A DNA stretch of 29,031 nucleotides, taken from positions 1 to 29,031 of the IMG/VR virus record IMGVR_UViG_3300020572_000002; one strand, written 5' to 3'. A program made the translations under genes and the position numbers. The stretch is from a virus. This document shows, one piece after another, positions 11,133 to 13,577 of the stretch (position 1 is the stretch's first letter; every line of letters starts with the position of its first letter). The notes beneath the pieces were generated by a model, which searched no databases, was not told where the DNA came from, and saw only the letters and a program-made list of their open reading frames with translations.

Positions 11133-11391
11133 GATCATATATAAGAAATTAGGCAGGGAACAAGCGCACGGCATTGCTGAAAGTGATGGTGTAGTTTATA
11201 TTGACTCACGGCTAAAGGGTAAAAAATTGCTTGAGATATTGCTACATGAGCTGATGCACCTTCAAAATCCATTGGACGATGAAGAAACGATTATTAACAA
11301 AAGCGTAACTTTATGTAAGATTCTCTGGAAAGAAGGTTACAGGAGAGTAGATAATTCTAACGATACACCATTGCAAGATGGTTCTAAATAG
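11122..11391 (+). CDS. Small HExxH metallopeptidase-like protein
   Basis: This protein has 89 residues. A KGKKLLEILLHELMHLQNPL block holds the zincin motif HELMH at 42-46 (His42, Glu43, His46). Upstream, SDGVVYIDSRL resembles the strand that precedes this helix in SprT/ImmA-like minimal zincins, and downstream LCKILWKEGYRRV is a helix common to such proteins. It may be a protease or only a zinc-binding remnant; a third ligand is not obvious, though the acidic DDEE at 53-56 could supply it. It is the last gene before the tandem terminators. Confidence 0.7.
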   Translation: MKIKIIYKKLGREQAHGIAESDGVVYIDSRLKGKKLLEILLHELMHLQNPLDDEETIINKSVTLCKILWKEGYRRVDNSNDTPLQDGSK

Positions 11392-11407
11392 TTGTTGGTT
11401 CATAGTT

Positions 11408-11435
11408 CCCCATCCCTAAAAAGGTGGGGTTTTTT
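11408..11435 (+). terminator. Rho-independent terminator 1
   Basis: CCCCA at 11408-11412 pairs with TGGGG at 11425-11429, extended by CC/GG across a one-base bulge, with an A-rich loop and a following run of six T (11430-11435). It lies 17 bases after the last late gene. Confidence 0.85.
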
Positions 11436-11438
11436 ATA

Positions 11439-11446
11439 TATATTTG
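11439..11446 (+). promoter_or_regulatory. Possible -7 element (TATATTTG) between the two terminators
   Basis: The octamer fits TAnnTTTG and would start a transcript near 11452 that meets the second terminator at about 11500. No -33 box is visible. It may be chance in an AT-rich stretch. Confidence 0.25.
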
Positions 11447-11474
11447 CATTTCATATTGGAGAACTTAGGTTTAG

Positions 11475-11506
11475 CCACCCTTTTAGTCTTATTAGGGTGG
11501 TTTTTT
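11475..11506 (+). terminator. Rho-independent terminator 2
   Basis: CCACCCT at 11475-11481 pairs with AGGGTGG at 11494-11500 and is followed by six T (11501-11506). With terminator 1 it insulates the early module from late transcription. Confidence 0.88.
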
Positions 11507-11522
11507 ATATAATAAACTGGAC

Positions 11523-11587
11523 AAAGTAAACCTATAACTTGACACATATCCCAATAAAGTAAGTCAATTACTTGACTTTTTGACTTA
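11523..11587. promoter_or_regulatory. Tandem bipartite repeats: operator or origin iterons
   Basis: The element AAAGTAA-N7-ACTTGAC occurs twice with identical internal spacing, at 11523-11543 and 11556-11576, exactly 33 bp (three helical turns) apart. The second copy overlaps a perfect inverted repeat, AAGTCAA-TTAC-TTGACTT (11561-11578), and another TTGACTT follows at 11580-11586. The spacing suggests binding of a protein on one face of the DNA. It lies about 60 bases upstream of the early promoter. Confidence 0.55.
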
Positions 11588-11645
11588 TATACCATTTATC
11601 CCTATTATTTGCCGTTCATCACATTTATTTAAAATAATTGGCTTG

Positions 11646-11679
11646 TTTGATAAAGTTATAAGGTTTTACCCTATCTTTG
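11646..11679 (+). promoter_or_regulatory. Early-module promoter
   Basis: TTTG at 11646-11649 and TATCTTTG at 11672-11679 are separated by 22 bases, within the range usual for Bacteroidota -33 and -7 boxes. The first early gene starts 24 bases downstream, at 11704. Confidence 0.6.
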
Positions 11680-11703
11680 ATTTCATAAACCAAAACAACC
11701 AAT

Positions 11704-11832
11704 ATGAACAGACTAAAAACCCAACAAGAAAAGGCAAACGAGCGATACGCTCAAGAAAGCATCAAACCACTTTACGCATTTATTATTGTATGCGTGGCAT
11801 TTTTAATTACCGCAATCCTTCAAAACATTTAG
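11704..11832 (+). CDS. 42-residue single-span membrane protein
   Basis: The frame from ATG 11704 encodes a charged head (MNRLKTQQEKANERYAQESI) and one membrane span (AFIIVCVAFLITAIL, about 25-39). It is the first gene after the early promoter and starts in an ACCAATATG context shared with other early genes. It is most likely an early membrane protein that alters the host envelope or anchors a partner; I do not recognise the family. Confidence 0.6.
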   Translation: MNRLKTQQEKANERYAQESIKPLYAFIIVCVAFLITAILQNI

Positions 11833-11833
11833 T

Positions 11834-12004
11834 ATGACACCAATTCAACTTTACATCAACACTTTGGAAACTAAAATATTAACTATGCCAAATGATGGCT
11901 ATGTAAAAGAAACAGTACAAGCCTGTTTAGACTTAGCAAAAGGCATTAATGAAATCTATGAAAACACTTATTACAACGTTGGTCAGCCAACAAATCAAGA
12001 CTAA
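11834..12004 (+). CDS. 56-residue hypothetical early protein
   Basis: The ATG at 11834 is one base after the previous stop. The protein (MTPIQLYINTLETKILTMPN at the start, ending GQPTNQD) is soluble and mostly helical. Its last 56 bases overlap the ribbon-helix-helix gene in another frame. Similar short early proteins are common in Bacteroidota phages, but I cannot name a function. Confidence 0.6.
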   Translation: MTPIQLYINTLETKILTMPNDGYVKETVQACLDLAKGINEIYENTYYNVGQPTNQD

Positions 12005-12176
12005 TTTACAAACCGAAGCCGACACTAAAGGTATCACTTTAAGTAAGTTGGTTTATAAAATCCTAAAACAATATGAGCAAACTAATCTATCAAGAGAAAC
12101 AACTCAAGTTGCACAAAAGAGCAACAATGCTATTGGAACTACTAAAACAAGCACAAGGAAGGCAAAATCTATTTGA
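11949..12176 (+). CDS. Ribbon-helix-helix (Arc/CopG-like) DNA-binding protein
   Basis: This frame has 75 residues (or 72 from the second Met at 11958). The segment LITTLVSQQIKTNLQTEADT followed by KGITLSKLVYKILKQYEQ has the ribbon-helix-helix pattern: a polar beta strand, helix A, the G-x-T/S-x-S-x-L turn and helix B. Such dimers repress transcription, which makes it a candidate binder of the repeats at 11523-11587. The C-terminal about 30 residues are basic and Thr/Ser-rich and overlap the next gene in another frame. The overlaps on both sides lower certainty, but the fold pattern is good. Confidence 0.6.
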   Translation: MKSMKTLITTLVSQQIKTNLQTEADTKGITLSKLVYKILKQYEQTNLSRETTQVAQKSNNAIGTTKTSTRKAKSI

Positions 12177-12369
12177 GGCAGATTTAGCCGAATGGAGACG
12201 AGGACTTGATGATACAAGGACAATGATTAGCGAGGAAGACTTACTAATTAAGATAGCAAGGATGAATGACATCCAGCGTAGAATCCTTAAAAGCTACCAT
12301 TATTTGATCCTTGACCTTTATACCTTAACTGAGGACTTTATGTTACCAATAAACCTTTTACATTTCTAA
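12073..12369 (+). CDS. 98-residue hypothetical helical protein
   Basis: The ATG at 12073 lies in an ACAATATG context like other early genes and gives 98 residues; a later start at 12127 (MLLELLKQAQGRQNLF) would shorten the overlap with the RHH gene from 104 to 50 bases. The protein is helical and charged, with FEADLAEWRRGLDDTRTMIS and a Tyr/Leu-rich end. It is coupled by TAATG to the DnaA-like gene, so a replication role is possible. I do not recognise the family. Confidence 0.65.
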   Translation: MSKLIYQEKQLKLHKRATMLLELLKQAQGRQNLFEADLAEWRRGLDDTRTMISEEDLLIKIARMNDIQRRILKSYHYLILDLYTLTEDFMLPINLLHF

Positions 12370-12806
12370 TGAGAGAAGTACACAAAACATATATGGCAGA
12401 ACTTGAAATAGAAGTTTTGCGAGATAAGAACAAAAAGCTAAAGCAAGAGATAAACCAATTAAAGGATTTATTAGACAAACATTTAAACATAAAAACAATA
12501 AGAATGGACAAAGAACAACAAAAGGAGTATGCAGTTGAAATGGCTGAAAAGATATGCAATTACTACCAAATTAAGTACGGACAAATGATGTCTAAATACA
12601 GGGGTGAGGAGGTTACTTTAGCAAGACAAATGACTATGTATTTCACTAAGGAAAAGACCGAGTTAAATGGCGAGGAAATAGCAAAATTGTTCAATAGGGA
12701 TAGAACCACAGTATTACACTCAATTTCTAAGATTAAGGGTCAGCTATCAAATAAGTTCGATGATACCATAAAAAATGACATTTTCAACTTAAATGTGCTA
12801 CTTTAA
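12369..12806 (+). CDS. DnaA domain IV-like DNA-binding protein without an ATPase domain
   Basis: This protein has 145 residues. The N-terminal 45 residues are a coiled coil (LRDKNKKLKQEINQLKDLLD). Residues about 58-127 match the DNA-binding domain of DnaA: an R-rich loop (SKYRGEEV), the basic helix LARQMTMYFTKEKTEL, and the DnaA signature helix RDRTTVLHSISKI at 110-122, equivalent to GRDHTTVLHA with Arg in place of the usual His. The AAA+ domain needed to melt DNA is absent, so it may bind an origin or DnaA boxes and recruit or block host DnaA, or act as a regulator. The coiled coil could mediate dimers. Confidence 0.8.
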   Translation: MREVHKTYMAELEIEVLRDKNKKLKQEINQLKDLLDKHLNIKTIRMDKEQQKEYAVEMAEKICNYYQIKYGQMMSKYRGEEVTLARQMTMYFTKEKTELNGEEIAKLFNRDRTTVLHSISKIKGQLSNKFDDTIKNDIFNLNVLL

Positions 12807-12857
12807 TTAGGTTATTAACACTAAATTAGTTAATTTTAAACTCTAAAACAAACCAAT

Positions 12858-13577
12858 ATGAGCGAACAACAACTGGCTAAAAAGCCACAACTTTCGTACA
12901 CGAAAGATCAAGTAGAGTTAGTAAAATCACAGATTGCTCCAGAGGCAACAGTTGATGAACTAAAACTATTTCTTTATCAAGCCCAAAGGACAGGACTTGA
13001 TGCGTTATCAAGACAAATTTATTGCATCCACAGGAACGTAAAAACGCAAAACGGATGGAGTAAGAAAATGACAATTCAAACAAGTATTGATGGCTTCCGA
13101 GTAATCGCTGAAAGAAGCGGAAATTACGGAGGGCAAAGCGAACCTATCTTTGTAGAACAAGATGGCAAGTTAATATCTTGTAAGGTATCAGTATTTAGGT
13201 TTAATGGCGATACAAGGTATGAGGCAGCCGTTGGAGTTGCATACTGGGATGAATACTGCCAAAGAACAAACGATGGCAAACCAATGGGTTTATGGGCAAA
13301 GATGCCACATACAATGTTAAGTAAAGTTGCAGAGGCATTAGCTTTAAGAAAGGCTTACCCACAGGATTTGAGCGGTCTTTATACAGGAGATGAGATGGCT
13401 CAATCAACAGAGGAAACTCCAACCTACATTAAGGCTCACGAAAGCGTAGAGGACTTGGAATTAGCTATTGATTTGTGCATAAATACTACTGAATTAAGCC
13501 AACTTTACGCACTAAATAGCGAACTTGCAACTAAAGATGTAACTAAATTATTTACCAAGAAAAAAGAATCTTTATGA
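12858..13577 (+). CDS. bet: Bet/RecT-family single-strand annealing protein
   Basis: This protein has 239 residues. It fits the lambda Bet family: LFLYQAQRTGLDALSRQIYC at 38-57, a TIQTSIDGFRVIAERSGNYG block near 73-92, and LSKVAEALALRKAYPQDLSG near 154-173. These proteins bind single-stranded DNA and anneal complementary strands during recombination and replication. No Exo or RecE-like nuclease gene is recognised next to it, which is less common for Bet and may mean it works at replication forks or with a host nuclease. It starts in an ACCAATATG context and ends by overlapping the next gene by ATGA. Confidence 0.93.
   Translation: MSEQQLAKKPQLSYTKDQVELVKSQIAPEATVDELKLFLYQAQRTGLDALSRQIYCIHRNVKTQNGWSKKMTIQTSIDGFRVIAERSGNYGGQSEPIFVEQDGKLISCKVSVFRFNGDTRYEAAVGVAYWDEYCQRTNDGKPMGLWAKMPHTMLSKVAEALALRKAYPQDLSGLYTGDEMAQSTEETPTYIKAHESVEDLELAIDLCINTTELSQLYALNSELATKDVTKLFTKKKESL

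Follow-up and report, generated by a model that had tools for sequence, protein, structure and literature searches.

Organisation of the intergenic region

The window, i.e. the whole stretch of DNA analysed here, is a virus record of 29,031 bases read as one stretch, in which all apparent genes lie on the + strand (list of open reading frames, by eye). One gene ends at 11391 and the first early gene starts at about 11704, leaving an intergenic stretch of 312 bp (11392-11703) with a G+C content of 0.298 vs 0.341 for the whole window. No comparable gap appears in the list of open reading frames (by eye), in agreement with the sequence-only reading, which had described this region as the sole sizeable AT-rich intergenic area. 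A terminator scan detected T1 (11408-11434, + strand), with a stem at 11408-11429 and a T-tract. A terminator-like hairpin, T2 (11475-11506, + strand), was recognised by eye, its loop being longer than the scan allows; its stems vary between relatives with their pairing kept (by eye), and it forms the left border of a variable slot. The early promoter P2 (11646-11679, + strand) reads TTTG-N22-TATCTTTG and is of the Bacteroidota -33/-7 type, the consensus of which is given in PMC6847099.

Between both terminators, positions 11430-11475 hold a TATATTTG/TATCTTTG box and CATATTGGAGAACTTAGGTTTA, kept in most relatives; this could be the promoter of a very short RNA terminating at T2. Elsewhere in the window, the protein encoded at 17366-18523 matches the ParB N-terminal domain just under the Pfam cut-off, fused to an N6/N4 DNA methylase domain.

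The repeat pair

Two units of the form AAAGTAA-N7-ACTTGAC lie between T2 and P2 on the + strand: unit 1 at 11523-11543, the - strand of which reads GTCAAGTTATAGGTTTAC and resembles a MobMystA operator, and unit 2 at 11556-11576, the left half of which is weaker. They are separated by a 12-bp linker (11544-11555) whose length is constant and whose sequence varies among phages. The unit is an imperfect palindrome, and its stacking period of 33 bp corresponds to about three helical turns. From the end of the array to the -7 box of P2 there are 95 bp. The arrangement had been correctly described from the letters: exact copies with the same internal spacing occur at 11523 and 11556 only, either strand of the window being searched; the second copy overlaps a perfect 7-bp inverted repeat (AAGTCAA-TTAC-TTGACTT, 11561-11578); and an additional TTGACTT follows 8 bp past the preceding one (11580-11586).

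The pattern was picked after being seen. When up to two mismatches are allowed, shuffled sequences give on average 0.67 matches, and 18 of 100 shuffles give at least two. Scored in this way the repeat does not by itself weigh heavily, yet both copies have no mismatch; the strong evidence is external and comes from a matrix of chromosomal operators (see below). A further motif, TTGAC-N19-GTCAA (11539-11567), was present in 18 of 36 records, with one copy each (both strands give the same place). It is common to other insert types of the window's family and, being found in two of these types, was set aside as the main element.

Similar arrays precede chromosomal MobMystA genes

A search for the unit through 84,980 genomes of bacteria and archaea gave only seven occurrences. 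At six of the seven sites the next gene, immediately downstream, encodes mobile mystery protein A (MobMystA, with an XRE-type HTH); the seventh, in a Pedobacter metagenome-assembled genome, is not upstream of MobMystA. The Fic partner, MobMystB, is visible at five of these six sites, the contig ending in the other (L340). TIGR02612 scores over its cut-off in six of the seven unit-bearing genomes. At the L339 locus, for example, protein A matches TIGR02612 with 140.4 bits (cut-off 122.6), and the neighbouring gene product matches TIGR02613 with a Pfam Fic domain (profile). Across Bacteroidota, TIGR02612 is over cut-off in only 40 of 395 genomes. MobMystB resembles the candidate anti-phage families PDC-S04 (2.1e-20) and SoFic (5.8e-10). 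We found no solved structure of MobMystA.

The 33-bp period extends to MobMystA genes in general. Of 36 Bacteroidota loci, two had no start codon and were omitted, and at least one of the remainder, L369, was read from the wrong start, an error that works against the 33-bp period. Among the upstream regions of the 34 genes used, a direct-repeat period of 33 bp ranks first, alone or tied, in 23 and second in 6, and a period of 32 bp ranks first in 5. In a shuffle control, with one shuffle per region, 33 bp receives a share of 0.5 of 34. Arrays in this position, directly before the regulator gene, very probably autoregulate MobMystA.

The letters of the half-sites follow the recognition helix. 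A-type and G-type half-sites are in a ratio of 37:0 for the 14 MobMystA genes with a QG or QA helix and of 5:11 for the 15 with a QS helix. For the genes combining a GIY-YIG domain with a similar HTH, the ratio is 32:1 with QG/QA (14 genes) and 4:1 with QS (3 genes). The genes of this tally are related, hence not independent, and 2 of 54 have no recognisable helix. Half-site letters thus appear to track the helix imperfectly, some QS genes having A-type sites. The half-sites of the window carry the letters of the QG/QA class, unit 2 being weak by itself.

A chromosomal matrix recovers the window array

A matrix was built from 21 chromosomal sites of seven MobMystA genes, excluding phage data; the consensus used for collecting these sites was devised after both the phage and the chromosomal groups had been seen. 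With this matrix unit 1 is the top-scoring site of the entire window (25.9 bits), above the highest single site of 20 (15.8 bits) or 500 (20.0 bits) simulated windows. Unit 2, at 14.7 bits, falls within this null range and alone is no better than chance. As a pair at spacing 33 the units reach 40.5 bits; pairs in 500 Markov-simulated windows do not exceed 14.3 bits, and in the real window no other spacing between 24 and 47 gives more than 15.3 bits.

Arrays recur in unrelated phages

A total of 84 viral stretches contain the unit AAAGTAAASSTNTAACTTGAC. Fourteen listed loci are contigs from the window's family, and L313-L316 were excluded from later analyses; 66 array loci outside the family were analysed, none of which has the family promoter. 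The units are non-coding at 53 of 54 distinct phage sites (no open reading frame of at least 90 aa covering them). Their neighbours include a terminase-like gene matched by the window TerL (about 38%) and, by eye, a short gene starting with MRNEHEHKL, a helicase-like gene and a small gene starting with MTHLTTYQ.

Of 61 distinct sites, the seven genome loci included, 23 have a second unit at -33 and 20 have one at +33, while any other offset from 21 to 90 is represented by at most three. The sequence-only reading had suggested looking for the repeat in related phages; the 33-bp spacing is kept in 37 of 43 distinct tandem arrays, the others having periods of 38 (four), 31 (one) and 40 (one). The mean frequency of the top base is 0.97 in the half-sites and 0.61 in the linker (unit 1 belonged to the selection). 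At 31 of 54 distinct sites in other phages, a TAHHTTTG box on the strand opposite to the unit starts 0-39 bp upstream of it, a count made without a chance control and in which many of the phages are related.

In the window's family the array is one of several inserts

Relatives of the window were collected by a search with the DnaA-domain protein (80 loci) and by a search with the promoter (86 stretches). Five small early genes, among them those for the RHH-like and DnaA-domain proteins, are present in all 70 promoter-bearing relatives (window counted). For the slot between T2 and the promoter, 77 segments, from which five without a left anchor were omitted, gave 72 distinct versions. The 33-bp pair is present in 17 of these and a single unit in 3, while 52 lack the unit; 21 of the 72 have no insert at all. 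L002, which belongs to these 21, shares 94% identity with the window over the part between the promoter and the 12369 gene. Because 52 of 72 promoter regions have no repeat although the early proteins are universal, the array is an optional cassette which these proteins do not need. No DNA relative of 11380-12900 was found among phage isolates, and the array is absent from the phage and plasmid collections searched.

The counterparts of the slot (11507-11590) in L004, L007, L013, L024, L048, L055, L068 and L073 contain differing operator-like modules in changing combinations. Some relatives have two 22-bp direct repeats TATCAATCAT, elsewhere both copies are TATCGCTCAT, and L068 has one of each; further modules are the palindrome GTAGTAATACTAC, GTGTCA..TGACAC, GTTCACG..CGTGAAC and others. 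Several of them reappear next to the array in unrelated phages. A chromosomal source for the 22-bp repeat TATCAATCA-N13-TATCAATCA of other relatives was sought in 385 genomes and found in none. In L009 and L039 an open frame resembling an HNH-type homing endonuclease (by eye) lies within the T2 hairpin region. Before the early genes of L027 and L031, a different AT-rich block containing a TATATTTG box takes the place of P2; the promoter itself thus seems exchangeable.

Which protein reads the array?

The RHH-like protein (11949-12176, + strand) and the DnaA C-terminal domain protein (12369-12806, + strand) are both encoded in the downstream operon, and the sequence-only reading had proposed that the repeats are an operator of the former or iterons bound by the latter. 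The general idea of an operator stands; these two binders find no support. Concerning the RHH-like protein, family searches gave no significant regulator match, and a distant homologue (L266) is RHH-like by eye. Its N-terminus is nearly invariant across relatives, with two alleles, SQQ and TNQ, which are independent of the array: this is present in the window (SQQ) and in L037 (TNQ), and missing in L003 (SQQ). An RHH operator was rejected, since the array travels neither with the RHH gene, found in 70/70 relatives, nor with its alleles. The DnaA C-terminal domain of the 12369 protein is real (Bac_DnaA_C, 4.1e-19). Iterons or an origin were nevertheless rejected: the gene is universal in relatives and the repeat dispensable, and 11391-11850 contains no site within one mismatch of TTATCCACA, the DnaA box consensus. 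The GC skew, put forward as a way to locate a replication start, displays no clear switch but one shallow dip at 11501-12500. Of the 66 array loci outside the family, two showed an RHH homologue and five a DnaA-domain homologue in the available DNA; the array thus also occurs in phages for which neither protein was detected. Either assignment is highly improbable.

By the resemblance of the sites, a MobMystA-type HTH is very likely to recognise the window array. A profile of this HTH matched none of 93 virus records, window included (many of them fragments, and eight being family relatives without the paired array). Run locally, the same profile recovered 20 of 21 positive-control loci and matched none of the 66 array loci outside the family; over 60 pieces of the window's family, it matched only one gene, in L050. 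The window array is called an orphan because the window record has no such HTH gene: it resembles the operator of a mobMystAB operon and does not appear to be a member of one. As no regulator was found in the phage, the binding protein would have to come from outside. A search with the capsid protein for a clue to the host gave just 3 distant matches in 294 genomes.

The L050 gene encodes a protein of 156 aa with an HTH and a MUG113/T5orf172 domain, a domain of the GIY-YIG type. Its HTH is 39% identical to that of MobMystA over 74 aa. The gene starts directly after a unit AAAGTAAACCTATAACTTGA, at a place where L024 is uninterrupted, and its own promoter has the same half-sites in everted orientation, an arrangement that homologues as distant as about 60% identity retain (by eye). 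In a phage family of MUG113-HTH proteins (L228-L245), the promoter has, around its -7 box, CTTTACTTTT..AAAAGTAAAG, and both half-sites shift jointly to TACCTTA..TAAGGTA in L243 (59% identity). Proteins likely to read the array sites are thus present in chromosomes of Bacteroidota, as MobMystA, and also in some phages, as the GIY-YIG-HTH protein of L050.

Discussion

In the records compared here, the window carries an array that matches those found upstream of MobMystA genes, this type of array is spread over unrelated phages, and the searched records contain no detectable regulator for it. We infer from this a binding protein, its source and an effect on the promoter. The two repeats would form a two-unit operator array of the MobMystA kind, bound in trans by the MobMystA of a Bacteroidota host or by a related HTH protein on another, possibly co-resident, mobile element, such as the GIY-YIG-HTH protein of L050. 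From a binding place some 100 bp before the -7 box, the regulator would link early transcription of the phage to its own level, for example by delaying this transcription while it is abundant, and replicating phage copies would also titrate it. Taken as a whole, we give this explanation a probability of roughly 45%. Its weaker element, the action of the regulator on the early promoter, is slightly doubtful on present sequence comparisons, and at 95 bp from the -7 box the array is too distant for direct blocking. The presence of TIGR02612 in so few Bacteroidota genomes and the absence of the array from most family versions are counted against it.

A broader proposal, which we hold only tentatively, is that many unrelated Bacteroidota phages have gained operator arrays of the regulator of a Fic operon, a candidate anti-phage operon, as a DNA sensor of, or counter-measure to, a host defence regulator, swappable slot modules retuning the response. 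One slot before the early promoter would then hold several interchangeable operator-like modules, and swapping short non-coding pieces would change which host or rival regulators a phage line answers. The array may instead act as a decoy: as phage genomes multiply, their copies would compete with the chromosome for MobMystA or for a complex of MobMystA with Fic, so that a Fic-based defence is weakened or wrongly set; if the early promoter is affected at all, this would be a by-product. The arrays of unrelated phages adjoin different genes at varied distances, which fits a function independent of position, and the likeness of MobMystB to candidate anti-phage families points the same way. However, the TAHHTTTG box near so many units, counted as above, looks like promoter control, and freeing the Fic protein from its partner could damage the phage; we regard a decoy as rather unlikely.

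Less credible is a homing target or scar: a selfish GIY-YIG-HTH gene would recognise the array or insert there, and the site would be unoccupied in the window and occupied in L050. The position of the L050 gene right behind a unit, at a place where L024 is continuous, the alignment of its HTH with MobMystA and the half-sites in its own promoter would be expected of such an element. But there is a single insertion in a single contig, the promoters of this gene family have everted half-sites at other spacings and no 33-bp stack (by eye), and linkers of constant length and variable sequence argue for selection on the pair rather than for a decaying scar.

Coming back to an operator bound in trans, the mobMystA/B (TIGR02612/TIGR02613) operons of Bacteroidota have the same half-sites, palindromic unit and 33-bp stacking as the phage array. 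They differ in that their arrays abut the start codon of the regulator itself, whereas the phage array is without a regulator gene and lies upstream of an early promoter. Phage PhiTE reportedly carries pseudo-ToxI repeats similar to a portion of a toxin-antitoxin locus of bacteria; these are mimics of an RNA antitoxin, while the window repeats have the look of operators in DNA. That phages can carry sites for host regulators is already known: PMC9437464 describes such sites for CtrA, LexA and Spo0A. There, as here, unrelated phages hold sites for host factors near promoters, and the recurrence of the window-type site in unrelated phages recalls such co-option. Those proteins are however global regulators with a known role, whereas MobMystA is the local regulator of a Fic operon and its binding to phage DNA is predicted. 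In Caulobacter and its phage phiCbK, XRE-type proteins of both have overlapping binding sites, according to PMC10688885; phiCbK thus brings the protein, while the window phage brings sites without a detectable protein. No published description of the MobMystA operator, or of phages bearing it, was found in a literature search covering mainly openly available journal articles, nor any account of Fic operators with 33 bp.

For a widespread but little-studied pair of regulator and Fic protein, the finding supplies a concrete DNA target, and many unrelated phages hold this MobMystA-type target without a detectable regulator. Through the array, such phages may detect, follow or sequester a protein that belongs to the host or to some other mobile element. 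If the binding is true, it would link a candidate anti-phage Fic module to early transcription of phages and would explain a class of recurrent intergenic repeats in environmental Bacteroidota phages.
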